A DNA stretch of 55,623 nucleotides from Planctomycetota bacterium (lineage in GTDB: Bacteria > Planctomycetota > Planctomycetia > JALXBF01). Numbering within the stretch: position 1 is the first letter of the stretch; the number at the start of each line of letters is the position of its first letter. Shown here one piece after another: positions 1 to 49,380 of this stretch. The notes under the pieces were generated by a model. It did not search any database and was not told the DNA's origin. It saw only the letters and a program-made list of their open reading frames with translations. Position numbers and translations under genes: made by a program. The stretch covers positions 1-55,623 of the forward strand of contig JALXBF010000106.1 in assembly GCA_026991575.1 (NCBI GenBank), read 5' to 3'.

Positions 1-608
1 TTCAGGACGCAAAGGGGCTGGGAATTCGAGACTGGTTTGAGCGAACCAACCCGTTTGCTTTTCAGGAGGTGACGGAGATCCTGCTCGAAGCAGCGCGGAA
101 AGGCTACTGGAATGCCGACGAGGAGACCCTGCGCACGGTAGCGATGGCCTATGTCGAGTCGGTGCGCCGGCACGGTGAGGGTGAGGGGCTGCGCGGTGGC
201 GGCAACGTGAAGTTAACGCGGTTCGTTGAGCGGATCCTAATCCGCGCAGGACACCGGGAACTGCTGGCCCAGTATCGCGGCGTCCGCACCGGAGCGCACG
301 ATCCGCACAGCGGCGGCGAGCCGCCTGCTGCCAGCGCGGCACCCGGGCTCGGCTCGCCATCCCCTGCTCGGCCGGCCGCCGACAACAGTCCGGACCAATC
401 GCTGCAGCCCCGGCAACGCGAAGTCGTCGGCACCGAGTTGGTACCGTCAGCCGAAGACGAGCCCACGAGGGAGCACAAGCTAACGGGCACACCAGCGTCA
501 ACCCGGCAGCCCATCTTGCCGCTCTGGGCAATCGTCGTGGCCCTGGCGCTGGCGACCCTGGCAGGCGGCGCGGCACACGCAGCCTGGCGTCACCGCCGGA
601 GGGGATAG
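1..608 (+). CDS. CobN/HmuS-type metal chelatase subunit, C-terminal part (5' end outside window)
   Basis: The open frame runs in from the window edge (first full codon at base 3), so only about the last 201 residues are seen. The first 75 match the C-terminal helical region of the large cobaltochelatase CobN family: an NPFAFQEVTE segment, a short acidic helix, then VKLTRFVERIL. A Pro/Ala/Ser-rich linker of about 75 residues follows, then one hydrophobic helix (LWAIVVALALATLAGG) and a basic tail (WRHRRRG). I read this as a membrane anchor with the chelatase domain on the far side of the linker. True aerobic CobN normally has no such anchor. The next two genes (ExbB-like and DUF2149) are those that accompany CobN-like HmuS in hmuSTUV loci, so a membrane-tethered haem or tetrapyrrole chelatase or dechelatase fits better than B12 synthesis. 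The substrate is inference. Confidence 0.75.
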   Translation, partial: QDAKGLGIRDWFERTNPFAFQEVTEILLEAARKGYWNADEETLRTVAMAYVESVRRHGEGEGLRGGGNVKLTRFVERILIRAGHRELLAQYRGVRTGAHDPHSGGEPPAASAAPGLGSPSPARPAADNSPDQSLQPRQREVVGTELVPSAEDEPTREHKLTGTPASTRQPILPLWAIVVALALATLAGGAAHAAWRHRRRG

Positions 609-612
609 CACG

Positions 613-1347
613 GTGCACCAGATCTATGCCTTTCTCAGTGCCGTTTCGGTTGTCCTGCTGATACCCGTGATTCTCTTCCTGCTGGTCACGGCGTTCGTGG
701 TGCTATGGCAGCTCGGGGCTGTCGCCTATGAGGCCTGGCTGCGGCGACGCACCGCCGGCTCTTACCGGACGACCTTATCCCGGCTGCAATGCGCCGGGAC
801 GGTTGATGCCATCGGCTTAGAACGAGCGGTCACCGGCCCGCGCCTTCTCCGAGAGTGGCTGAGCCGCTGCGCAGCGGAAGGCGACGTCCTTGCGGCGACA
901 CCGCCGGACGGATCGGCGGAAGCTGCGCAGCGAGCATTGGACCTGGTGGAGCTTTCTGCCATGGTCCGTCTTGAGCAGCTCAGGCTGCTTGCGCGGCTGG
1001 GGCCAGCCCTGGGGCTGATGGGCACGCTCATCCCTCTGGGACCGGCCCTGGTCGCCCTGGCACAGGGCGATCTTCAAACGCTGGCCGAGAACCTGGTCGT
1101 GGCCTTCGGCACGACAGTCGCCGGACTGTTCGTCGCCGTACTCGCGCAGCTACTGGCGACGGTCCGTGCCCGGTGGTACGCGGAGGATCTCCTGGACCTC
1201 GAGCACCTAACGACGCGTGCCAACCGCCAGCAGCAGCCCCGCCACCACGGCACAAGCTGGGAAGCAAGGAACGGCTTCGCGAACTCCTCCAGGGGCGACG
1301 GGGAACGCGAACCAGCCGCAGGCAAGTTGGCGGGGAACGAACCATGA
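613..1347 (+). CDS. MotA/TolQ/ExbB-type proton channel protein
   Basis: A 244-residue membrane protein with the TolQ/ExbB plan: one N-terminal membrane helix (about residues 8-30), a cytoplasmic stretch of about 90 residues, then two helices around GPALGLMGTLIPLG (about 128-145) and FGTTVAGLFVAVLAQLL (about 165-185). The Gly/Thr-rich second and third helices are the family signature for a proton-conducting stator. It begins at GTG 613, four bases after the chelatase stop, with a strong GGAGGGG ahead of it. Its end overlaps the DUF2149 start by ATGA. By analogy with HmuU-like proteins it probably couples proton motive force to the chelatase or an outer-membrane receptor. No TonB is seen here. 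A generic ExbB role cannot be excluded. Confidence 0.8.
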   Translation: MHQIYAFLSAVSVVLLIPVILFLLVTAFVVLWQLGAVAYEAWLRRRTAGSYRTTLSRLQCAGTVDAIGLERAVTGPRLLREWLSRCAAEGDVLAATPPDGSAEAAQRALDLVELSAMVRLEQLRLLARLGPALGLMGTLIPLGPALVALAQGDLQTLAENLVVAFGTTVAGLFVAVLAQLLATVRARWYAEDLLDLEHLTTRANRQQQPRHHGTSWEARNGFANSSRGDGEREPAAGKLAGNEP

Positions 1348-1721
1348 GACGTAGGCGGTTCCGAACACTGTACGGCAGCAGCCTCGGCGACCCGGGCGGC
1401 GATCCGCTTGCCATCGTGGCAAACTTGTTCGACGTGGCCGTTGTGTTCGCTGTGGGTCTGCTGGTGGCCCTGGCACTCAGTACCGTGGGGCAGCTCGTCC
1501 CGCAAGAGCCCGACAGCGTCACCCCGGCAGACTATCGCCGCCTACCGCGCTATCGCATCGGCTCGCGCACCCTGCGCGGCGAGGCGGTCCGGCTCGGTAC
1601 GGCTTACCGGTTGGCCACCGGTGAGGTGGTCTACGTGCCTGAAACGCCCGAGACCGTCGGCTCAGCCGAGCAGGACCACGCGGCTCGGCCGGCGCAAACC
1701 CCTGGGGAGGCACGTCCCTAG
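1344..1721 (+). CDS. DUF2149 family membrane protein (HmuV/ExbD-like partner)
   Basis: A 125-residue protein with a basic N-terminus, a DPLAIVANLFDVAVVFAVGL stretch that forms the single membrane helix (about residues 20-46), and a soluble tail of about 75 residues. The DP-x5-NLFDVA-x-VFAVGLL pattern is the DUF2149 signature. These small proteins sit beside CobN-like and ExbB-like genes in many bacteria and methanogens. The single N-terminal helix plus soluble domain recalls ExbD/TolR, the usual partner of the preceding channel. I chose ATG 1344 because it overlaps the previous stop (ATGA); the frame is open further upstream, but only inside the ExbB gene. Its molecular role is not established. 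Confidence 0.75.
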   Translation: MRRRRFRTLYGSSLGDPGGDPLAIVANLFDVAVVFAVGLLVALALSTVGQLVPQEPDSVTPADYRRLPRYRIGSRTLRGEAVRLGTAYRLATGEVVYVPETPETVGSAEQDHAARPAQTPGEARP

Positions 1722-1853
1722 CGGCAGAATCATCCGGCACGGTAGCCCGGGACACTGGTCCGCGCCTGCTGTGCCCTTGCGTTCCACTTCCGAATCGGGT
1801 ACAAGTCTGGCCGAGAAGTTCACTGGCCAAGATATTCCAACGAGGACCGCGTG

Positions 1854-2864
1854 ATGAGTCGCGTACGCCGGGCAGTGTGCTGTTCCTTCGGCTTGCTCGC
1901 AGTACTTCTCGGCCTGAGCGGGAACGAGGGTCGGCCCCAGGTCGTCTACGTCAACAACGTTGTAGGCAGCGATCACAACGACGGTAGCACCCCGCAAACC
2001 ACCAGCCCCGGTGTCGGTCCGGTAGCCACGCTGGAACGAGCGTTTCGGCTGGCCCGTCCCGGCGAAACTATCCGACTCGTCAAGACCGACCGCCCTTACA
2101 GCGGGAGCCTGACCGTGGGCACCCCGGGCCGGGGCGGAATCGCCGGACATCCGATCATCTTGGACGGCAACGGTGTGGAGCTCCGTGGATTCGCGACCGT
2201 GCCGGCTTCCGTATGGCAGTACGTCGGCCAAAGCACCTACCGAATGCAACCCTATCGCAAGGGCTACTACCTGTTGGTGGTTGAGGGGCAGCTGGCCGAG
2301 CGTGTCCCGTACCGCCAGGCCGAGAAGGGCAGCGACCGTCCCGCGCTACGGCCATTGCAGTGGACCGTGCACCGCGGCCACATCTACGTGAGGATCCCTG
2401 AGGGGAAGTACATCGATCAGCTGACCATCGAGATCCCGGGCGCTGACATCGGACTGAGCCTGTATTCGGCCAAACACGTCGTCATCCGGGACCTGACCAT
2501 CACGGGCTACCGGTTAGATGGTGTGCATGTGTTCGGGAATTCGGAGGCGGTGATCCTGGAGAACGTCATCTGCAGGCTTAACGGCCGTGCGGGCATCGCT
2601 GCAGGAGGCACCTCCAGGCTCGTTGCCCGCGGCTGCCAGTTGCAAACCAATCTGGTCAGCGACGTGTACACGTATGGCAGCGCCACCGTCCACCTGAGCA
2701 ATTGTAAGCTCTTGGGCGGCGGCCGGTACCTGGTGTGGGCACGCGGCGGCCGTGTTCTTCTGGAGAATGTCACGCTGGGCACGTACGGCACGAGCCGCTT
2801 CTTCGAGAACGGTGGCAGGATCCAACAATTAGGCGAGGCCCCTGAGGCAGATCGAGCTCCCTGA
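1854..2864 (+). CDS. secreted right-handed parallel beta-helix protein
   Basis: A protein of about 336 residues with an N-terminal signal peptide (hydrophobic core [12 protein letters not shown]). Next comes the start typical of DUF1565/pectate-lyase-fold proteins: [14 protein letters not shown], then a Pro/Thr loop and [17 protein letters not shown]. The rest has the short-strand repeats of a beta-helix ([50 protein letters not shown]). No catalytic residues can be assigned, so it may bind or cleave a polysaccharide or be a surface protein. ATG 1854 has GAGG eight bases upstream; GTG 1851 is an alternative. It lies 132 bases after DUF2149 and 43 bases before the macrodomain gene. Confidence 0.7.
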
Positions 2865-2907
2865 GCGGCCGGACCTCGGCAGCGGCCGTACCGCGGGAGG
2901 CGCGAGT

Positions 2908-3459
2908 ATGAAGGTCACCATCAACGGCACCACGCTGGAATTGGTCCAGGGTGACATCACGAAACAGCAGGTGGATGCGATCGTCAACGCGGCCAACAGC
3001 CGGCTGGCCGGTGGTGGCGGCGTCGACGGCGCGATCCACCGCGCCGGCGGCCCTTCGATCATGAAGGAGTTGAAGGAAAAGTATCCGGGTGGTTGCCCCA
3101 CCGGATCGGCAGTGATCACCGGCGCGGGCGACCTGAAAGCTAAGTACGTGATCCACGCTGTTGGCCCAATCTACCGGGGCGGCACCCATGGCGAAGCGGA
3201 AAAGCTTGCGAGCGCGTACCGGGTGAGCCTGGAGCTGGCAAGCCAGCACGACTGTCAGTCCGTGGCGTTCCCTTCCATCAGTACTGGTGCCTATGGCTAC
3301 CCGGTCGATGAAGCAGCTCGTGTGGCTCTTTCCACGGTCATCGACTTCCTGCGCACCAGTGACCGGAAGCCGTCGCTTGTCCGGTTCGTGCTCTTCGACC
3401 GGCGCACCTATGAGGCTTATGAGGACGCCCTCCGCAAGCTAACGGCCCAGGCTTCGTAG
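2908..3459 (+). CDS. macrodomain protein, O-acetyl-ADP-ribose deacetylase type
   Basis: A 183-residue single-domain macro protein of the YmdB/MacroD class. The ADP-ribose pocket is plain: [17 protein letters not shown] near residue 15, the Gly-rich loop [16 protein letters not shown] at about 32-47, [26 protein letters not shown], and the phosphate loop [12 protein letters not shown] at about 113-124. These enzymes hydrolyse O-acetyl-ADP-ribose or remove ADP-ribose from acidic residues or nucleic acid ends in the cytosol. Length and motif order are those of the family. GGGAGGC precedes ATG 2908. No partner ADP-ribosyltransferase or sirtuin is nearby, so the physiological substrate is open. 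Confidence 0.9.
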
Positions 3460-3621: not shown

Positions 3622-4821
3622 ATGAGCAAGCGTGTCTCTCTTGCCTTCGTCTCTTTGACGTTCGTAGTGGCGGTACTCGCATCGGCACTCGTTGCCGGGC
3701 GGCGCGATGGGGCGGAACCGATGGTGGCGGATCCAGCATTGCTGGCCAAGGCACGGCGCATCCTGGACGATGCGATTCTCATCGATGGCCACAACGACTT
3801 GCCCTGGACCATCCGCGAGCACACCAACGGTGATTTCGACCGCTACGACATCCGCAAACGGCTGCGTTTCGGCCACACCGATATCCCCCGACTGCGGGAC
3901 GGTCGCGTGAAGGCCCAGTTCTGGAGTGTGTTCGTACCGGTGCGCTATGCTGAGCAGGGAACGGCCGTCCGCACGACGCTAGAACAGATCGATCTTGTCT
4001 ACCGGATGATCCGCCGTTATTCGGACACGTTTGAGTTGGCCCGCTCGGCAGCCGACGTGCGCCGTATTGCTGCTGCAGGCAAGATCGCCTCGCTGATCGG
4101 CGTCGAAGGCGGTCATTCGATCGACAACTCGCTCGGCGTGCTTCGCATGTACTACGAGCTCGGCGCACGCTACATGACGCTTACCCACAGCAAGAACACC
4201 GACTGGGCCGACTCGTGCACGGACAAACCAGAGCACGGGGGTCTGACCGAATTCGGCGTTCAAGTCGTCCACGAAATGAATCGCCTCGGCATGCTGGTCG
4301 ACATCTCGCACGTTTCCCACGACACGATGCGTCACGTACTCCGTGTGACCAAAGCCCCCGTAATCGCCTCGCACTCCTCCGCCTACGGCGTGGCCCCGTT
4401 TGCCCGCAACGTGCCCGACGACGTGCTGCGGATGATCCGCGACAACGGCGGTGTTGTCATGGTAAACTTCTTCCCGTTCTTCGTGCACCCAGAAGCTGCA
4501 CGGACGCTGGCCCAGGGGAAACGCCCGGATCCAGTGCCGCAGACCACCATCGAGCACGTGCTTGACCACATCGACCACATTGTCCGCGTTGCTGGTATCG
4601 AGCACGTGGGGTTGGGTTCCGACTACGATGGCATCCCATACACCCCACAGGGGCTTGAAGATGTCTCCACGTTCCCGAACCTAGTCGCCGGCCTCTTGCG
4701 CCGTGGCTATGACGAGCGGGCCATCAAGCTGATCGTCGGCGGCAACGTCCTGCGAGTGCTCGAAGAGGCTGAACGCATCGCTACGAAGCTGCAGGCCGGG
4801 GAAACGACCGTCGCCCCGTAG
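3622..4821 (+). CDS. membrane (renal-type) dipeptidase, peptidase family M19
   Basis: A zinc dipeptidase of about 399 residues, exported by an N-terminal hydrophobic segment (VSLAFVSLTFVVAVLASALVAG). Family M19 metal ligands are visible in order: HND in DGHNDLPW (about 57-59), the bridging Glu in IGVEGGHS (about 160), SHVSHDT and IASHSSAYG (about 230-255), and the Asp of GSDYDG (about 332). It would hydrolyse dipeptides, including L,D or D,D pairs, outside the cytoplasmic membrane. ATG 3622 is preferred over ATG 3580 because AAGGAGC lies just ahead of it and the signal peptide follows directly. It is convergent with the MurNAc-salvage operon, so a part in using wall peptides is plausible but unproven. 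Confidence 0.9.
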   Translation: MSKRVSLAFVSLTFVVAVLASALVAGRRDGAEPMVADPALLAKARRILDDAILIDGHNDLPWTIREHTNGDFDRYDIRKRLRFGHTDIPRLRDGRVKAQFWSVFVPVRYAEQGTAVRTTLEQIDLVYRMIRRYSDTFELARSAADVRRIAAAGKIASLIGVEGGHSIDNSLGVLRMYYELGARYMTLTHSKNTDWADSCTDKPEHGGLTEFGVQVVHEMNRLGMLVDISHVSHDTMRHVLRVTKAPVIASHSSAYGVAPFARNVPDDVLRMIRDNGGVVMVNFFPFFVHPEAARTLAQGKRPDPVPQTTIEHVLDHIDHIVRVAGIEHVGLGSDYDGIPYTPQGLEDVSTFPNLVAGLLRRGYDERAIKLIVGGNVLRVLEEAERIATKLQAGETTVAP

Positions 4822-4963
4822 CAGTCGCGGCTGCGGGCGCGTCCGCGCTGCCCGCCGCCAGACTCGCCCCAGTGACGTCTCCTGTTTGCATGTCGAGGAC
4901 CCGTGGCTTCCGTGGATGACGGCGACTTGCCGTGCGTCCCCGCGCGGCCGGAGGCATGGCTGG

Positions 4964-6217
4964 TCAGTCCTCGTCGTACAACAGCACGCTGGCCCGCCGC
5001 GGCAGGAACGCACGAAGCTCTTGCTGACAGTGCGCCATGATCTGCTCGAACGGAGCTGCCTCTTCAATCAGGCGATACACGCGCGTATCGGCCAGCAAGC
5101 GAATGTAACGGCGATGGTCCCACTTTTCAGGGTGGGTCAACCGCAGTGCGTGAGCGATGGCCAGTCCGGTCCGCACCGGCTCGAACTCGGTGCGGTCCGT
5201 TACGATCACTTCCAGGCCGTAGCACAGCTCTCCGGCAAACTTGCTGGCCGACGGCCGAAAGCTCACTGGCACAAACACCACGCCACGCAAGCCGTACCGT
5301 TGCAGCGCCCGCCAGAGCGCGAAATGATCCAGCCACGGAGCCCCGAAACGCTCAAACGGCGTATCCGTTCCCCGGCCGACGCTGAGGTTTGTGGTTTCCA
5401 GCAGGCCAATCCCTGGGTACAGCAACGCCTGACGGAGCGAGCGCATGTTCGGTGACGGGTTCACCCATGGCTGGCCGGTACCGTCCAGGTACATCGTTCG
5501 ACGCCAGCCCTCCATGCGGACGACCGCGAGCCGGACGTTGGGAAAACGCTCGCGGCGATATAGCCGGGCGATCTCACCAACGGTCATGCCGTGACGCACC
5601 GGAAGCGTGTGAAACCCGACGAAGCTTTCCATGCCGTGATCCAGCACGGGCCCGGCCACTGCCGTTCCCCCAATGGGATTGGGACGGTCCAGCACGAGGA
5701 ACTGGACACCGGCCTCTTGGGCAGCTTCCATGCAGAGACCAAGCGTGGAAATGTACGTGTAGAAACGGCAACCGATGTCCTGGATGTCGAAGACCAACAC
5801 GTCCACGTTCCGAAGCTGCTCGTGCGTCGGTTTGCGGCGTTTGCCGTAGAGGCTGTAGATGGGCACCCCCGTTCGCTCGTCCCGGCTGTCCGCCACTGCC
5901 CCCTCGGCAACGGCCCGGAAGCCGTGTTCCGGCGTAAAGATTGCCACCAGGTCGACTTCCGGATGTTGATGCAGCAAATCGACCAGGTGTTGACCTTCGG
6001 GGGTGATAGCCGTGCGGTTGGTGATCACAGCCACTCGCTTTCCGTGCAGCGGTCGGAAGTCTCGATCTCTTAGGACCTCCAAGCCGCTTCTGACCGGCAG
6101 ACCCGCTGCCCGCCTGGTCATCAGGATAGGTGCAAGGGATACCGGTTCCGCAGCCTGTGTCGCTACAGCAGCGCACAGCACGGTGGCGAACGCGAGGCAG
6201 TTCAGGCGGTGCTTCAT
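4964..6217 (-). CDS. namZ: exo-beta-N-acetylmuramidase NamZ-like (DUF1343, GH171)
   Basis: A 417-residue secreted protein with signal peptide (LNCLAFATVLCAAVATQA). The DUF1343 fold shows as RVAVITNRTAITPEG (about 61-75), IFTPEHGFRA (93-102), VFDIQDIGCRFYTY (142-155), VLDRPNPIGG and MTVGEIA. The family includes the Bacillus subtilis and Tannerella NamZ enzymes, which release MurNAc from the non-reducing end of peptidoglycan fragments (GH171). It is the last gene of a minus-strand block: its ATG overlaps the symporter stop by one base (TAATG). With that symporter and the MurQ-kinase fusion upstream, the assignment to wall-sugar release is strong. Linkage specificity is inferred from family and neighbours. 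Confidence 0.88.
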   Translation of the reverse strand: MKHRLNCLAFATVLCAAVATQAAEPVSLAPILMTRRAAGLPVRSGLEVLRDRDFRPLHGKRVAVITNRTAITPEGQHLVDLLHQHPEVDLVAIFTPEHGFRAVAEGAVADSRDERTGVPIYSLYGKRRKPTHEQLRNVDVLVFDIQDIGCRFYTYISTLGLCMEAAQEAGVQFLVLDRPNPIGGTAVAGPVLDHGMESFVGFHTLPVRHGMTVGEIARLYRRERFPNVRLAVVRMEGWRRTMYLDGTGQPWVNPSPNMRSLRQALLYPGIGLLETTNLSVGRGTDTPFERFGAPWLDHFALWRALQRYGLRGVVFVPVSFRPSASKFAGELCYGLEVIVTDRTEFEPVRTGLAIAHALRLTHPEKWDHRRYIRLLADTRVYRLIEEAAPFEQIMAHCQQELRAFLPRRASVLLYDED

Positions 6218-7632
6218 TAGAGCAATCTCCGAAACACGAGCCCGCCCAGTCCCGTTGCGACGACCCCAATGAGGCTAAGCCACGGGAAGGCAACATCGCT
6301 AAGCCCCCAGGCAGCGAGGGCCGCGCCAAGTCCGACGCAGAATGCTACGGCTGCGGCTCGGGTGGAGACGCCCTCCATCAGCGTCAGCGCGAGCAGGCCG
6401 AGAACGACACCGGTTGTCAGCGAGGCCACCGTGAGAATCGGTCCGATGACCGGGCTGTCCCGGTCCAGCCAGTGGATGGCAGCCAGCGCCACGGCTCCCT
6501 GAGCCACCCCGGCAGCGACCGTTGCCAGCCGCGACCACCACAGGCCTTGGCTGCCACCGCGCTCGTGATCGAGCTGACGGGCCATCAAGTCGCCGACGAC
6601 GGTGGAAGCGATCGAGTTAACGGAGCTGGACAGGGTGCTCATGGCTGCCGCCAGCGCTGCTGCGACCACGATGCCGCGGGCCCCAAGCGGCATCGCCTCC
6701 AGAATGAACGTCACGAACACCTCATCCGCCCGCGCCGCGGTGTAGTCCGTGCGGTAGCGGTACCACAGTCCGACGCCGATGAGCAGGAACAGGGCAAACT
6801 GCACGAAAACCAGCACACCGCTGGCCACGAGCACGAGGCGGGCGCGGGTGAGCGAGCCGGTGCACAGATAGCGCTGCACCATGAGCTGGTCGGCGCCATG
6901 GGTGGCTGCGGATAGGAACGCCCCCCCGATGACGCCTGACCAGAAAGTGTACGTCTCGGTCAGGGACAGGCTGAAATCGAAGACGCGCAACTTTCCCGCC
7001 GCTTGCGCCTCGTACCACAGGCTCTGCCAGCCCCCGGCCCCGCCGACCAGTAACACCAGTGCCAGCACCGCGCCAAGGATGTAGACCACCAGCTGGATCG
7101 AGTCGGTCCAGAGCACCGCGCGGATTCCGCCCGCGAATGCATAGGCGACGGTCACGACGGCAACGACCAGCACGGCCCAGTCCAGCGACACTCGCAGCAT
7201 CGCACCGACCAGGATAGCGGTCAGGTACAGCCGTAGGCCATCGGCCACGGTGCGGGTACCCACGAACAGCAACGAAGTCAGCCGCTGCACGGAGCTGCCG
7301 AAGGCGGCTTGCAGGCGTTGGTACAGCGTCAGGTAGGGGCGATCGAACAGGGCCGGAAGCAACCACAGTGCGATGGCTACGCGACCCACGATATAGCCCA
7401 GTGGCAGCTGTAGGAAGCGCAGGTCAAACCGGAACCCGTGTGCCGGCACACTCAGGAACGTCACCGCACTGGTTTCCGTGGCCACGATCGAAAGCAAGGC
7501 CAGCCCGGCCGAGACCTGACGCCCGCCCAGAAAATAGTCCTCAACGCCGCGAGAACGGCCGCTGAGCGATAGGCCGGCAGCCAGCGTTACGATCAAGAAC
7601 AGAACCAACACGACCCAGTCGACGACGGTCAT
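6217..7632 (-). CDS. sodium:solute symporter (SSS family), probable MurNAc importer
   Basis: A 471-residue polytopic membrane protein with about 13 hydrophobic helices. Near the N-terminus it carries the SSS signature region: DYFLGGRQVSAGLALLSIVATETSAVTFLSVPAHGFR. Inside are YAFAGGIRAVLWTDSIQ (about 160-180) and a Ser/Thr-rich ALAAAMSTLSSSVNSIAST segment near the sodium site. In Tannerella forsythia an SSS protein (MurT) imports MurNAc and is encoded beside murK and murQ. Here the gene sits between the MurQ-kinase fusion (37 bases upstream) and namZ (one-base overlap). That makes MurNAc or MurNAc-GlcNAc the best substrate guess; SSS sequence alone cannot give the substrate. GGAG precedes the ATG at suitable spacing. 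Confidence 0.88.
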   Translation of the reverse strand: MTVVDWVVLVLFLIVTLAAGLSLSGRSRGVEDYFLGGRQVSAGLALLSIVATETSAVTFLSVPAHGFRFDLRFLQLPLGYIVGRVAIALWLLPALFDRPYLTLYQRLQAAFGSSVQRLTSLLFVGTRTVADGLRLYLTAILVGAMLRVSLDWAVLVVAVVTVAYAFAGGIRAVLWTDSIQLVVYILGAVLALVLLVGGAGGWQSLWYEAQAAGKLRVFDFSLSLTETYTFWSGVIGGAFLSAATHGADQLMVQRYLCTGSLTRARLVLVASGVLVFVQFALFLLIGVGLWYRYRTDYTAARADEVFVTFILEAMPLGARGIVVAAALAAAMSTLSSSVNSIASTVVGDLMARQLDHERGGSQGLWWSRLATVAAGVAQGAVALAAIHWLDRDSPVIGPILTVASLTTGVVLGLLALTLMEGVSTRAAAVAFCVGLGAALAAWGLSDVAFPWLSLIGVVATGLGGLVFRRLL

Positions 7633-7669
7633 TCGGCTACTCCGCTAGACCAGCGCGGCGTCGCCGGGG

Positions 7670-9604
7670 TCAGGCTCGTAACAGACGGGCGGCCAGCGTA
7701 ACGGCGCCGTGGGCTGCCTGACTGACCACGTGGACTGTCTCCGGCTCGACCACCCCTGCGAGCCGATCCAGCAGCCGCTGGCGCAGCGCTCGGCTCGCAG
7801 TCAGTAGCCCACCTGCCAGCAGTACCGGTCCACGCCACGGCGTGTTCTGGGCACGGCTGTCCGCAACTGCCTGCCTGACCTGGTCGGCCAACAGCGCGCT
7901 GGCTTCGTCCAGCATGGCCAGCGCCGCAGTGATCCCTTCCTCAGCCGCTGCCACAGCCGGCTTGGCCAGTTGAGCGATCCTGCGCACGGTATCTTCATCG
8001 GCGCGGGGGGTATACAGGAACGCTCGCACCAGCTGGGCGACATCGTGCCCGTCGTGGCTGGCTGCTAGCGGCCCAGCGGTACGAAGGAACGCAACCACGG
8101 CCTCATCGAGCGGGTCGAGCGGTTGGCCGCTATCCAGTCGCCGGCAGAGCCGCTGCAGGACTCGCCGGCCGAGCCAGTATCCGCTACCGGGATCGCCCAC
8201 CAGCCAGCCCCAGCCGCCGGCCCTGGCAACCGGTCGCCCACCGTCACGAACCTGAACCACTGTGCCGGTCCCCGCGATCACGGCAAGGCCTCGGTCCAGG
8301 CCTGCCGCGGCGTACACAGCGTCGATGTCGGTGTAGACCTGAATGCGATGGGCCAGTCGCAGCGAACGGAGCCAGTCTTGCCATTGCAGGGCGGTTTGCG
8401 ATCCTGCAGCGCCGGCGAGGCAGGCGGCCAGGCTCTCGACGGTCGCGTCCCGCTGGCGCGCCGCGCGGAGGGCCTGAAACACGGCTCGTGCCACGTGCTT
8501 GGCGGCGCGGGCAAAGCCGTAGACGTTGGCGTTTGCGCCCGGTTGCTCCGCTTCCGCCAACACTCGCCATGCGCCGGCCGCATCGACTGCGGCCACAACC
8601 GCGCGCGTTGCCGTGCCGCCGCCATCGATGCCCACAACGAGTCGCTCACCGGGGCGGAGCACGAGCCGGCCTGCCGGCTCCTCCTCCCCCAATGCCACCC
8701 GAACGTGTCCGCGCGCCTGCCGCAGCAGTGCACGTGCCTGTTCCGGCGAACAGCCCCGCTTGCCCACGACCAGCGCCGTCTTAACCTCCCAGCCGCAGCG
8801 ATCCAGCAGCGCCCGGGCCTGGTCGCGCGAAATGCCCAGCAGCTGGCTGACAATGCGGCAGGCGCGCAAGTGAAGTTTCGTGTTCGTGGCCTTCAGGTCA
8901 ACCATCAGGTTGCCGTAGGTCTTGCCGATCTGCACCATGGCACCGGTGGTGATCATGTTCAGCACCAGCTTCGTGGCGGTGCCGGCCTTCAACCTCGTCG
9001 AGCCACTCAGCACCTCCGGGCCCACCACCGGCGCAATCGCAATGTCGCACTCGTCTAGCACGAGGGCATCTCGGTTGCAGGCCAGAGCAATCGTCGTGCA
9101 CCCTCGTCCGCGAGCGTATCGCAAGGCAGCAAGCACGTAGGGCGTTCGTCCGCTGGTTGCGATGCCGCACACGACATCGCGCTCGGTGAGGTTCAGCTGT
9201 TCGAGATCCGCCACCGCTAGCTCAGCCCGGTCCTCGGCCCCTTCCACCGCACGGACCAGCGCGCGTGAGCCGCCGGCGATCACGCCAACGACCATCTCCG
9301 GGGGAGTGCCGAAGGTCGGGGGACACTCCGCGGCGTCCAGGACGCCGAGTCTGCCGGATGTTCCTGCCCCCACGTAGATCAGTCGGCCTCCGGAGCGAAA
9401 CGCCTGCGCCACCACCTCAATGGCCCGCGCAATCGGAACAGCCTGGCTGAGCACCGCCTCCGGGACACGGTGGTCCTCCTCGTTCATCAAGTAGACGATC
9501 TCCAGGGGGGTCAGCCGGTCGATGTCGCGCGAGGCGGGGTTTTGGGCCTCGGTCGTCAGCCCGTCGAGCTGGAAGATTCGCTGGTCAGCCGAATCGGAAC
9601 ACAT
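7670..9604 (-). CDS. murQ: MurNAc-6-phosphate etherase (MurQ) fused to BadF/MurK-type amino-sugar kinase
   Basis: Two enzymes in one chain of about 644 residues. The N-terminal 310 are MurQ: a SIS fold with VGAGTSGRLGVLDAAECPPT (family Glu at about 93), GVIAGGSRALVRAVEGAED (family Glu at about 121) and GIATSGRTPYV. It removes the lactyl ether from MurNAc-6-phosphate. From about residue 320 a BadF/BadG-type ASKHA kinase begins: VVGIDGGGTATRAVV (phosphate 1), an Asp-containing YTDIDAVYAAA, VIAGTGTVVQV and GDPGSGYWLG. MurK in Clostridium and Tannerella phosphorylates MurNAc with this fold. The fusion therefore makes MurNAc-6-P and passes it straight to the etherase. ATG 9604 was chosen; an in-frame GTG at 9646 would add 14 residues without family similarity. 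Confidence 0.9.
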   Translation of the reverse strand: MCSDSADQRIFQLDGLTTEAQNPASRDIDRLTPLEIVYLMNEEDHRVPEAVLSQAVPIARAIEVVAQAFRSGGRLIYVGAGTSGRLGVLDAAECPPTFGTPPEMVVGVIAGGSRALVRAVEGAEDRAELAVADLEQLNLTERDVVCGIATSGRTPYVLAALRYARGRGCTTIALACNRDALVLDECDIAIAPVVGPEVLSGSTRLKAGTATKLVLNMITTGAMVQIGKTYGNLMVDLKATNTKLHLRACRIVSQLLGISRDQARALLDRCGWEVKTALVVGKRGCSPEQARALLRQARGHVRVALGEEEPAGRLVLRPGERLVVGIDGGGTATRAVVAAVDAAGAWRVLAEAEQPGANANVYGFARAAKHVARAVFQALRAARQRDATVESLAACLAGAAGSQTALQWQDWLRSLRLAHRIQVYTDIDAVYAAAGLDRGLAVIAGTGTVVQVRDGGRPVARAGGWGWLVGDPGSGYWLGRRVLQRLCRRLDSGQPLDPLDEAVVAFLRTAGPLAASHDGHDVAQLVRAFLYTPRADEDTVRRIAQLAKPAVAAAEEGITAALAMLDEASALLADQVRQAVADSRAQNTPWRGPVLLAGGLLTASRALRQRLLDRLAGVVEPETVHVVSQAAHGAVTLAARLLRA

Positions 9605-9657
9605 GGAACCGTCGGAACTCTGATGCTGCAATCGCCGGTTGTGCACCGCTGGCGGCG

Positions 9658-46511: not shown

Positions 46512-46576
46512 TGGACGGAAAGTGATACTGAGTCTCATTAGCAGGAAGGGTGAGCTGCGCCGGAGAGGACGCACCG

Positions 46577-46819
46577 ATGACACGGCTATCGCACCTGGCG
46601 GTCGGCGACCAGGCAGAAGTGCTCGACGTGCTCGGCGACGACGCTCTGGCCGGTCGACTCATGGAAATGGGCCTCACGCCCGGCGCCCAGGTCAGGCTCA
46701 TCGGCAAAGCCCCGTGGGGCGACCCGCTGGAGTTCCAGGTCCGCGGGTACCGGTTGAGCCTGCGACGAAGCGAAGCTGAGCGCGTCTGCATCCGGACCCT
46801 GGCCACCGCCTCCCGCTAA
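46577..46819 (+). CDS. feoA: ferrous iron transport protein FeoA
   Basis: 80 residues with the SH3-like FeoA fold: LSHLAVGDQAEVLDVLGDD, RLMEMGLTPGAQVRLIGKAPWGDPLEFQVRGYRLSLR (in part) and a final AERVCIRT. MGLTPGAxV and GDPLEFxVxGYxLSLR are the family signature. FeoA is a cytosolic partner of FeoB, needed for Fe2+ uptake. ATG 46577 follows GAGAGG; nine codons upstream in frame are dropped. FeoB starts 16 bases after its stop. Confidence 0.95.
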   Translation: MTRLSHLAVGDQAEVLDVLGDDALAGRLMEMGLTPGAQVRLIGKAPWGDPLEFQVRGYRLSLRRSEAERVCIRTLATASR

Positions 46820-46835
46820 CCCGCACGCCTGTGCC

Positions 46836-49103
46836 ATGCCGCCCGATTCCGCCGCCTCCACAGCGCACCGTACCATCCACGTCGCCCTGATCGGCAACCC
46901 CAACACGGGCAAGTCCACTCTGTTCAACGCCCTGGCCGGCCTGCGCCAACGTGTCGGCAACTACCCGGGAGTCACCGTTGAGAAGCGCGTCGGCTATTTT
47001 GAGCATGAGTCTCAACAGTTCGCACTCGTTGACCTGCCCGGCACCTACTCGCTCTCGCCCCGCTCACCCGACGAACTGCTTGTCTTCGAGCTGCTGCTGG
47101 GCAAACTCCCCGACCAACCGGCCCCGGACGTCATCCTCTGCATCGTCGACGCGTCGAACCTGGAGCGCAACCTCTACCTTGTCAGCCAGCTGCTAGAACT
47201 CGGCAAACCGATCGTAATTGCCTTAAACATGATGGACTTGGCCGAGCAGGCCGGCTGGCAAATCAACATCGAACAGCTCCAGCAGCGGCTTGGCGTGCCC
47301 GTCGTGCCGATCCAGGCGCACCGCCGCATCGGCCTGGACAAACTCAAACAGGAACTGCTCAACGCAGTGCACCAACCTGCGCCACCGTGCCCGGCCGTTT
47401 TCCCCGACGTGGTCGACCGGCTCGCCACCGAATTGCAGCGCACTCTCCGCGACACGCTACAGAAGAACGCGGCCTCATCGGCCTCCGCCCGCAACAGCGA
47501 CGGTGAACTGTCACTGTGCCTGGTCCGCCGTCTGCTGCTGGACGTTGGCGGAGCGGTTGAACGAACGCTTCTGCCACCCGACGAAAACACACTCCGGGTT
47601 GTGCGCGAGGCACGCGAGCAACTGAAGGCAGCAGGAGTCCGTCTCAACGCCGTGGAAGCCATCTCACGCTACGACTGGATCCGCAACCTGCTGGACGGCG
47701 CCGTTCGCTATGCCCCACCGTCTGAACTCACCCTCACGGACCGCGTCGACCGAATCCTGACGCATAAGCTCTGGGGTACGCTCGTGCTCGCGGCCGTGAT
47801 GTTGGCCGTCTTCCTGTCCATCTTCCGACTCGCTGAGTGGCCGATGGACTGGATTGACCGGACGATTGCCGGGCTGGGCGAGGCGCTGGCGGCTCGATTG
47901 CCTCAAGGCGCGATCCGGTCGCTGTTGGTCGACGGTGTGATCGCCGGGGTGGGAGCAGTCGTCGTATTCCTGCCTCAAATCATGTTGCTGTTCCTGTTCA
48001 TTGGCATTTTGGAAGACTGCGGTTACATGGCACGCGCGGCGTTCCTCATGGACAAGCTCATGCAGAGCGTGGGCTTGAGCGGCAAGTCGTTCATTCCGTT
48101 GCTGTCCTCGTTTGCCTGCGCCGTGCCCGGCATCATGTCGGCCCGAGTCATCGAGAACCCACGCGACCGACTGGCAACGATTCTGGTCGCGCCGCTGATG
48201 AGCTGCTCGGCTCGCCTGCCGGTCTACACCGTCCTGATCGCGGCGTTCGTACCTACCAACACGGCATTGGGCAGTCTGCTTCCCGGTCTGGTGCTCTTTG
48301 CCATGTACGTGCTCGGCATCGTCGTGGCCGTCGCCGTTGCCTGGGTCCTGAAGCGAACCTTGCTCCGCGGCCAGGGGTCACCGTTCGTCATGGAGTTGCC
48401 TGTTTACAAGGTACCCTCGCCGCAAGTGGTCTTCTTCCGCGTGTTCGACCGCTCGTGGGCCTTCCTGAAGCGGGCTGGCACGATCATCTTCGCCGTCTCG
48501 ATCGTGATCTGGGCCCTGAGCTACTACCCACGCGATCACAAGCTGATCAATAGCTACCAGCAGCGCATCGCAGCACTGACTTCAGCGATGCGGGACAGCC
48601 ATTCAGCGGAGCAGAGCGACAAGCTGGCAGCCCAGATCGAAACTCTCGAGGCAGAGCTACAGGCTGAATTGCTCAAGCGAAGCGTCCTGGGACGGCTGGG
48701 CCGAGCGATCGAACCGATTGTCAGACCGGCCGGCTGGGACTGGCGGATCGGCTGCGCCGTGGTCGCCTCGTTCCCAGCCCGTGAGGTGGTCATCAGTGTG
48801 CTGGGCGTCATCTACGGCGTTGGGGAGGTGGACACCGAAGATGAGAGCTCCGCAGGACGACTGGTAAGCAAACTGCGAAACGCACGATGGGACGACACGG
48901 GGGAACCGGTGTTCAACCTGCCGGTTGCCCTATCCCTAATGGTTTTCTTCGCGCTCTGCGCCCAGTGTGCGTCGACACTGGTCGTGCTGGCCCGCGAAGC
49001 AGGCCACTGGCGGTGGTCGGTATTCACGTTCACGTACATGACCGTGTTGGCTTACCTGGCTGCGGTGGCCACGTACCGCGTCGGCACAATGCTAGGTTGG
49101 TGA
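46836..49103 (+). CDS. feoB: ferrous iron transporter FeoB
   Basis: 755 residues. The N-terminal G domain: IGNPNTGKSTLFNALAG (about 15-31), PGVTVEKRVG (G2), DLPGTYSLSPRSPDE (G3), ALNMMDLAEQ (G4). A helical GDI-type domain (about 175-275) leads to the membrane part, with two Gate domains around residues 340-480 and 610-745. The Cys motif of the channel appears as SSFACAVPGIMSARVI and SCSARLPVYTVLI. FeoB imports Fe2+ across the inner membrane. It lies between feoA (16 bases) and a small Cys-rich gene (16 bases), so all three are probably one transcript. Confidence 0.97.
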   Translation: MPPDSAASTAHRTIHVALIGNPNTGKSTLFNALAGLRQRVGNYPGVTVEKRVGYFEHESQQFALVDLPGTYSLSPRSPDELLVFELLLGKLPDQPAPDVILCIVDASNLERNLYLVSQLLELGKPIVIALNMMDLAEQAGWQINIEQLQQRLGVPVVPIQAHRRIGLDKLKQELLNAVHQPAPPCPAVFPDVVDRLATELQRTLRDTLQKNAASSASARNSDGELSLCLVRRLLLDVGGAVERTLLPPDENTLRVVREAREQLKAAGVRLNAVEAISRYDWIRNLLDGAVRYAPPSELTLTDRVDRILTHKLWGTLVLAAVMLAVFLSIFRLAEWPMDWIDRTIAGLGEALAARLPQGAIRSLLVDGVIAGVGAVVVFLPQIMLLFLFIGILEDCGYMARAAFLMDKLMQSVGLSGKSFIPLLSSFACAVPGIMSARVIENPRDRLATILVAPLMSCSARLPVYTVLIAAFVPTNTALGSLLPGLVLFAMYVLGIVVAVAVAWVLKRTLLRGQGSPFVMELPVYKVPSPQVVFFRVFDRSWAFLKRAGTIIFAVSIVIWALSYYPRDHKLINSYQQRIAALTSAMRDSHSAEQSDKLAAQIETLEAELQAELLKRSVLGRLGRAIEPIVRPAGWDWRIGCAVVASFPAREVVISVLGVIYGVGEVDTEDESSAGRLVSKLRNARWDDTGEPVFNLPVALSLMVFFALCAQCASTLVVLAREAGHWRWSVFTFTYMTVLAYLAAVATYRVGTMLGW

Positions 49104-49119
49104 GCAGAGCGACCCTGTG

Positions 49120-49380
49120 ATGAACTGGCAAGACGTGACTGTCCTGGCCGCAGCAGCGCTTGCGGCCGTATACCTGGTTCGCCGCTTTGTGCGGCGCGGC
49201 GCAGCCTGCGGCGACTGCGCCGCAGCTGCATCCTCTTGCAGCTCCTGCCCCATCCTCACCCCATCGCAGTCCCTTCACCAGCTGTCGAACAGCCCCGCCG
49301 ACAGCAGACAGGCTCCCGGCCACCGCGGACCCGACGCGGGCGCCCCTGCGACAGAGCCGCACGACAACCCAAACACATGA
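49120..49380 (+). CDS. FeoB-associated Cys-rich membrane protein (FeoC-position)
   Basis: 86 residues. One N-terminal membrane helix (VTVLAAAALAAVYLVRRFV) is followed by RRGAACGDCAAAASSCSSC, two CxxC pairs, then a Ser/Pro-rich tail. The family found behind feoB in many bacteria has the same plan, a helix then a short Gly/Cys cluster; this copy has an extra disordered C-terminal tail of about 45 residues. The cysteines could bind iron or a cluster in the cytosol. ATG 49120 is preceded by GTG 49117 in frame. It converges on the aminotransferase gene 61 bases downstream. Confidence 0.7.
   Translation: MNWQDVTVLAAAALAAVYLVRRFVRRGAACGDCAAAASSCSSCPILTPSQSLHQLSNSPADSRQAPGHRGPDAGAPATEPHDNPNT

Follow-up and report, generated by a model that had tools for sequence, protein, structure and literature searches.

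What does a CobN-type chelatase do when its C-terminus runs into a membrane helix and a proton-channel gene begins directly behind it? This question arises at the very start of the window, the stretch of DNA analysed here (55,623 nt; Planctomycetota bacterium, assembly GCA_026991575.1, contig JALXBF010000106.1, positions 1 to 55,623, forward strand). The first-pass annotation had recognized there a CobN-type C-terminal end, a proline-rich linker and a membrane helix, followed within four bases by ExbB and then by DUF2149, and all of these are present (PF02514, PF01618, and PF09919). A PF02514 search of the organism's own genome returned a single gene in two pieces, at window 24-131 and at C131:3-3236 on the minus strand of another contig. 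The first 127 bases of the window are exactly the reverse-complemented end of contig C131, an overlap expected of contigs adjacent in the assembly graph, and we therefore read the two pieces as one gene; the joined frame encodes 1386 amino acids with no internal stop. The join is supported by the matching gene order elsewhere, including single-contig genomes (L037 from the closed genome G389, L073, and L088). Recovering the upstream contig, as the first-pass annotation had advised, revealed no receptor and no cob gene, cobS and cobT included, among the chelatase neighbours. The features of the joined locus are:

Contig C131 (locus L003), 4683-4946, minus strand: 88-aa protein with a lipobox-like GC, overlapping the DUF1559 start
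Contig C131 (locus L003), 3682-4683, minus strand: DUF1559 protein with a prepilin-type N-terminus, ending beside the chelatase start
Contig C131 (L003:3-3680), minus strand: remainder of the chelatase gene
Window 3..608, plus strand: 3' end of the chelatase gene, residues 1186-1386 of 1386 (PF02514, contig overlap, joined ORF)
Window 423..440, plus strand: juxtamembrane motif VVGTEL, pattern [VILM]xGxx[LM]
Window 513..569, plus strand: C-terminal membrane helix ILPLWAIVVALALATLAGG, residues 1356-1374, followed by a basic tail (mean hydropathy 2.18)
Window 613..1347, plus strand: ExbB/MotA/TolQ-type proton channel subunit (HmuU-like), 244 aa (PF01618, E 1.9e-12)
Window 1344..1721, plus strand: DUF2149 protein (HmuV-like) with one membrane helix (PF09919, E 4.1e-13)

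Window 3-608 matches profile positions 1055-1090 of the 1090 in PF02514 (E 3.8e-9), and in the joined protein the match spans residues 149-1228 (E 1e-297). By inspection, the N-terminus, VPRITGRLLRALGAAFWTLALCRAAPAAADA, is basic, hydrophobic, Ala-rich, and signal-peptide-like, and the linker near the other end holds 11 prolines per 84 residues. The chelatase TAG stop (606-608) and the ExbB GTG start (613) are separated by a four-base gap with nothing in between, and the ExbB stop and the DUF2149 start overlap. As the order chelatase-ExbB-DUF2149 is found again in over 20 planctomycete/PVC loci, the gene set is not a product of chance. Upstream on C131 lie, together with the DUF1559 and lipoprotein genes, genes for DUF6677, an ABC ATPase, and LarC.

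One answer would be that the protein is a classical cobaltochelatase CobN of aerobic B12 synthesis, and both PF02514 and CobN models do match it. However, it is predicted to be exported and anchored, it scores under every NCBIfam CobN and BchH cut-off, and our trees place it outside the CobN clade. Moreover, a SUMT-HemD fusion and an orphan CbiE/T-like protein are the only tetrapyrrole methylases in the genome, which thus appears to have no de novo B12 pathway that a cobaltochelatase could serve. On these grounds aerobic CobN, which we regard as highly improbable, was rejected. The gene for the orphan CbiE/CbiT-like methyltransferase (G000:C109:27643-28209, locus L101) is followed by one for a URO-D family protein, and other corrin methylases are absent.

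The relatives of the locus were collected from 84,980 species genomes, whose scan yielded 32 loci, mainly from Planctomycetota with some from Verrucomicrobiota and Lentisphaerota, most of them at 44-64% identity. DUF2149 was present in 43 of 392 genomes sampled across the phylum, and neighbourhoods were taken for 32 of these. The named comparison set was made up of twelve plasmid-borne relatives: Prevotella nigrescens (L103) carries a full hmuYRSTUV-like locus and Azospirillum a CobN-ExbB-DUF2149 set, and others include soluble CobN or BchH whose neighbours are genes for B12 or bacteriochlorophyll. In trees of 63 rows (quick) and 25 rows (careful), four anchored groups split from soluble CobN (support 100/100): group A is corrinoid-linked, B is proteobacterial and campylobacterial, C is HmuS, and D is the window's clade, which comprises a basal set (L039, L041, L050, L056, and L062) and an inner set with the window (100/100). 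C and D group together (91/99), and the window's planctomycete/PVC clade is thus probably sister to HmuS, although an AU test leaves D with soluble CobN (p 0.14) and D with A (p 0.08) unrejected. The first-pass annotation had looked to such a tree, and had considered clustering with aerobic CobN next to cobS, cobT and other B12 genes as the outcome that would speak against it; the chelatase was found outside CobN and away from cob genes. Soluble CobN and BchH/ChlH share the CobN-Mg_chel fold with it but are without signal, C-terminal helix and ExbB/DUF2149. Among solved structures, the best match to the chelatase was HmuS (516 bits), followed by CobN (427) and ChlH (391).

HmuS of Bacteroidota was recently shown to remove the iron of haem in the absence of oxygen, and what HmuT, HmuU, and HmuV contribute is still unclear (PMC12583661, PMC13227078). 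Nath et al. define HmuS by Met-79, His-254, a Met-rich insert, and body motifs, and His-538 is needed for turnover (PMC12583661). Mapping of these residues via a Prevotella alignment to PDB 9D26 (B. theta HmuS) gave a divided picture. The equivalent of the axial ligand His-254 is present in the window protein as His-275 in HTCHSR; it is found in 28/29 inner and 5/5 basal members of clade D and is absent from CobN and from the corrinoid-linked clade A. The site 2 residues His-538 and Glu-577 correspond to His-565 and Glu-604, a pair that is common to the whole superfamily and occurs in every clade D member except the aberrant row L058. On the other hand, the axial ligand Met-79 is missing (QHVR replaces AMG), the domain IV insert is missing (no Met in a 114-residue segment vs 31 in 265 residues of Prevotella HmuS), and site 2 Asp-1208/His-1209 is replaced by Lys-1083/Tyr-1084. 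The last region reads LDH in HmuS, NHH in basal D, and NKY in 25 of 29 inner rows; given the Asn-His-His of basal D, the Tyr is a change of the inner clade. These three absences suggest that substrate or chemistry could differ from those of HmuS.

The label HmuSTU(V)-like, given by the first-pass annotation, is therefore apt in part. The locus is of the HmuS/ExbB/DUF2149 type and shares with Bacteroidota hmuYRSTUV a predicted exported CobN-fold chelatase with a C-terminal helix and ExbB and DUF2149 neighbours (HmuS, HmuU, and HmuV). Unlike the Bacteroidota operon, however, it has no outer-membrane haem receptor (HmuR), no HmuY, and no HmuT, it has a His/Cys-rich head-neck and upstream DUF1559 and TRASH-like lipoprotein genes, and in the trees it falls in a separate clade and not inside that of HmuS. 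Because several of the features that define HmuS are lacking, we file the window protein apart from it; the best reading is an exported, PMF-coupled tetrapyrrole (probably haem) de-chelatase that is HmuS-like without being a strict HmuS. The CobN-like BtuS1/BtuS2 of Bacteroides fragilis, also among the closest known systems, belong to another phylum and operon.

Nearly all group A-D chelatases whose C-terminus is complete carry a hydrophobic helix there, which none of the soluble CobN/BchH proteins has; low helix scores were obtained for L077, L079, and L083, of which L077 and L083 lie at a contig edge. The fused anchor had been called unusual at first pass, which is correct for CobN but not for HmuS, where an anchor is normal and helices are found at both ends (PMC12583661, PMC13227078). 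Of 51 anchored relatives, 44 have the pattern [VILM]xGxx[LM] in the 45 residues that precede the helix, as against 0 of 7 soluble CobN/BchH proteins; it appears in 1.7% of shuffled segments, a figure that is descriptive as the motif was picked after the tails had been viewed. In ExbB, the Thr of GLMGT and the Thr of the TT-V-G stretch are conserved across relatives. In 58 DUF2149 sequences, Pro21 and a membrane Asp at residue 30 (window 1431-1433) are invariant, and the helix covers residues 21-51 in an AF2 model that is weak (pTM 0.33). A membrane Asp following a Pro is also seen in ExbD and MotB, and by this analogy DUF2149 probably fills the ExbD/MotB role. Homology to ExbD did not reach significance: profile comparison gave an hhalign probability of 0.6%, an hmmsearch against PDB sequences found no real match, and a fold search with the weak model found no significant match, so the comparison is kept as an analogy.

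Which protein the channel serves bears directly on the question. TonB is the usual client of ExbB-type subunits. In Bacteroidota, HmuR adjoins ExbB/DUF2149 (PMC12583661; Prevotella locus), and the published view is that HmuUV energizes the outer-membrane receptor (PMC12583661); by extension, ExbB/DUF2149 would merely accompany the chelatase. When receptors were scored by profile on all frames, one was found directly upstream of the chelatase in all five basal D loci as well as in L082 and L084. However, DUF1559 is upstream in 21 inner D loci, none of which has a receptor nearby, and ExbB/DUF2149 still follow the chelatase directly; six further inner loci have neither receptor nor DUF1559, some on short contigs. 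Overall, ExbB and DUF2149 lie beside the chelatase in 26 of the 27 inner D loci with enough downstream sequence (the exception is L074), whether a receptor is present or not. In the closed genome G389 nothing matches the haem-receptor model, and yet ExbB/DUF2149 come directly after the chelatase, and the juxtamembrane motif is common to anchored chelatases. Energizing a receptor is thus a doubtful account of the pair, and we infer that it drives the chelatase itself. The only TonB receptor of the window genome lies on another contig and most resembles the TOL_0244 type rather than haem receptors.

As for the substrate, the clade D receptors that were scanned (L039, L041, L056, and L082) have haem/haemoglobin receptor models as their top matches (E about 1e-52 to 8e-68, short of the curated cut-offs), whereas for those of clade A (L049, L060, and L066) the B12 receptor model ranks first (E 3e-49 to 6e-101), with the exception of L055, which scores best as haem. 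Planctomycete members of clade A (L044, L048, L049, L060, L063, and L066) have the same anchored chelatase, ExbB and DUF2149 but lie beside CbiZ, DUF2162, or B12-type receptors. They invite the alternative that the window complex acts on a corrinoid, as a periplasmic cobalt de-chelatase or corrinoid-remodelling enzyme. Clade A neighbours include a CbiZ-Peripla_BP_2 fusion and CobQ, salvage would be useful to an organism without de novo B12 synthesis, and the AU test tolerates D with A. Against this, the window clade has the His-254 equivalent that clade A lacks, its receptor-bearing members have haem-type receptors, and the window operon showed no gene of CbiZ or BtuF-like type; a corrinoid substrate is therefore unlikely. 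Two findings weigh against the haem reading: the genome encodes ferrochelatase, so the organism probably makes haem, and its sole TonB receptor is not of the haem type. The haem-type receptors in sister operons, the retention of His-254 and the gene content of the genome together favour haem over a corrinoid; the first-pass proposal of a proton-driven complex for haem or another tetrapyrrole has thus been narrowed towards a haem-like substrate, with the proton drive still conjectural. A corrinoid-type relative (L049 and L063) has the anchored CobN-like/ExbB/DUF2149 set next to a fusion of a periplasmic binding protein with CbiZ (demonstrated for L049).

DUF1559, a large and functionally uncharacterized family of planctomycetes, has 33 matches in the window genome. 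The operon-linked DUF1559 proteins from 15 loci form one clade (100% SH-aLRT), and the other paralogues of the window genome in the tree fall outside it, which indicates a dedicated partner rather than a random neighbour. Within the planctomycete subclade of the window, 14 loci encode the lipoprotein, in every case from a co-oriented gene upstream of the chelatase, and its four Cys are invariant. Single members weakly match TRASH, YHS or FCS-type zinc-binding models (best scores: zf-FCS 1.4e-5, Archaeal TRASH 9.7e-5). The domain model is confident (pLDDT about 95) and its fold search weak (best eL24, E 0.25; a solved TRASH domain ranked 12th, E 1.1), so that the TRASH-like label, which draws on weak Pfam matches and the Cys pattern, is a loose one. 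In three loci (L059:1339-3222, L072:338-2221, and L074:5987-7882), the upstream slot that elsewhere holds DUF1559 or a TonB receptor is occupied by a conserved secreted protein of ~630 aa (627 aa; without Pfam match in L072, the one examined).

Inner D proteins have seven further invariant His/Cys residues in the head-neck (H49, H92, H222, H225, H272, C274, and H290), almost none of them common to HmuS or soluble CobN, and one clade-specific invariant His/Cys in the body (Fisher p 1.5e-4, with the boundary at residue 300 set after the columns were seen). It is possible that they serve in bis-His haem binding or as a metal relay. This concentration, together with the four-Cys lipoprotein of weak TRASH similarity, could also be explained by a periplasmic metal inserter or delivery device, whose head-neck and lipoprotein load Fe, Ni, Co, or Zn into a tetrapyrrole or other proteins. 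Such a device would, however, need periplasmic tetrapyrrole synthesis, of which we know no case; class I insertion normally requires AAA+ partners, and the nearest characterized relative removes metal. We consider such a device quite unlikely.

Taken together, these data favour a tetrapyrrole de-chelatase complex that is tethered to the inner membrane and faces the periplasm. It would be a planctomycete variant of the HmuS system, and we give this reading a probability of about 0.5. In such a complex, the N-terminal signal would export the 1386-residue CobN-fold enzyme and the C-terminal helix would hold it in the inner membrane beside the ExbB-type channel and DUF2149. Proton flow through ExbB/DUF2149 would act via the juxtamembrane motif and linker on the chelatase body, supplying the conformational work that the AAA+ ATPases CobST and ChlID supply in soluble chelatases. 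The substrate, most likely haem, would be demetallated at His-565/Glu-604, and the iron would be received, relayed, and imported by the His/Cys-rich head-neck, the TRASH-like lipoprotein, and FeoB. In place of the TonB receptor, DUF1559 probably serves to present or guide the substrate. The fuller proposal of a PMF-powered chelatase, in which an ExbB/DUF2149 stator acting on the C-terminal helix replaces the AAA+ motor and DUF1559 and the TRASH lipoprotein replace TonB receptor and hemophore, is tentative. A possible route for released iron lies on the chelatase contig:

Window 46550..49103, plus strand: FeoA and FeoB ferrous-iron uptake genes (feoB TIGR00437, E 3.4e-161; FeoA weak, PRK09555, E 1.5e-6)

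With a small membrane protein that has a Cys-rich stretch, these genes make up one ferrous-iron uptake cluster (window 46550-49380).

Among the papers searched, none was found on such planctomycete operons. They extend de-chelatase-like systems beyond Bacteroidota and provide one DUF1559 subfamily with an operon context. As ExbB/DUF2149 have here been parted from the TonB receptor and kept with the chelatase, these operons make the client of the proton channel directly testable.

Directly downstream of the operon (window 1851-3459) are genes for a right-handed beta-helix protein and a macrodomain protein, which were not seen as conserved neighbours in the relatives. Farther on, the minus strand of window 4964-9646 holds a compact locus for the recycling of peptidoglycan sugar (MurNAc). 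It encodes a NamZ exo-muramidase, a sodium:solute symporter, and a fusion of a SIS-domain (MurQ/GKRP-like) protein with a BadF-type kinase.
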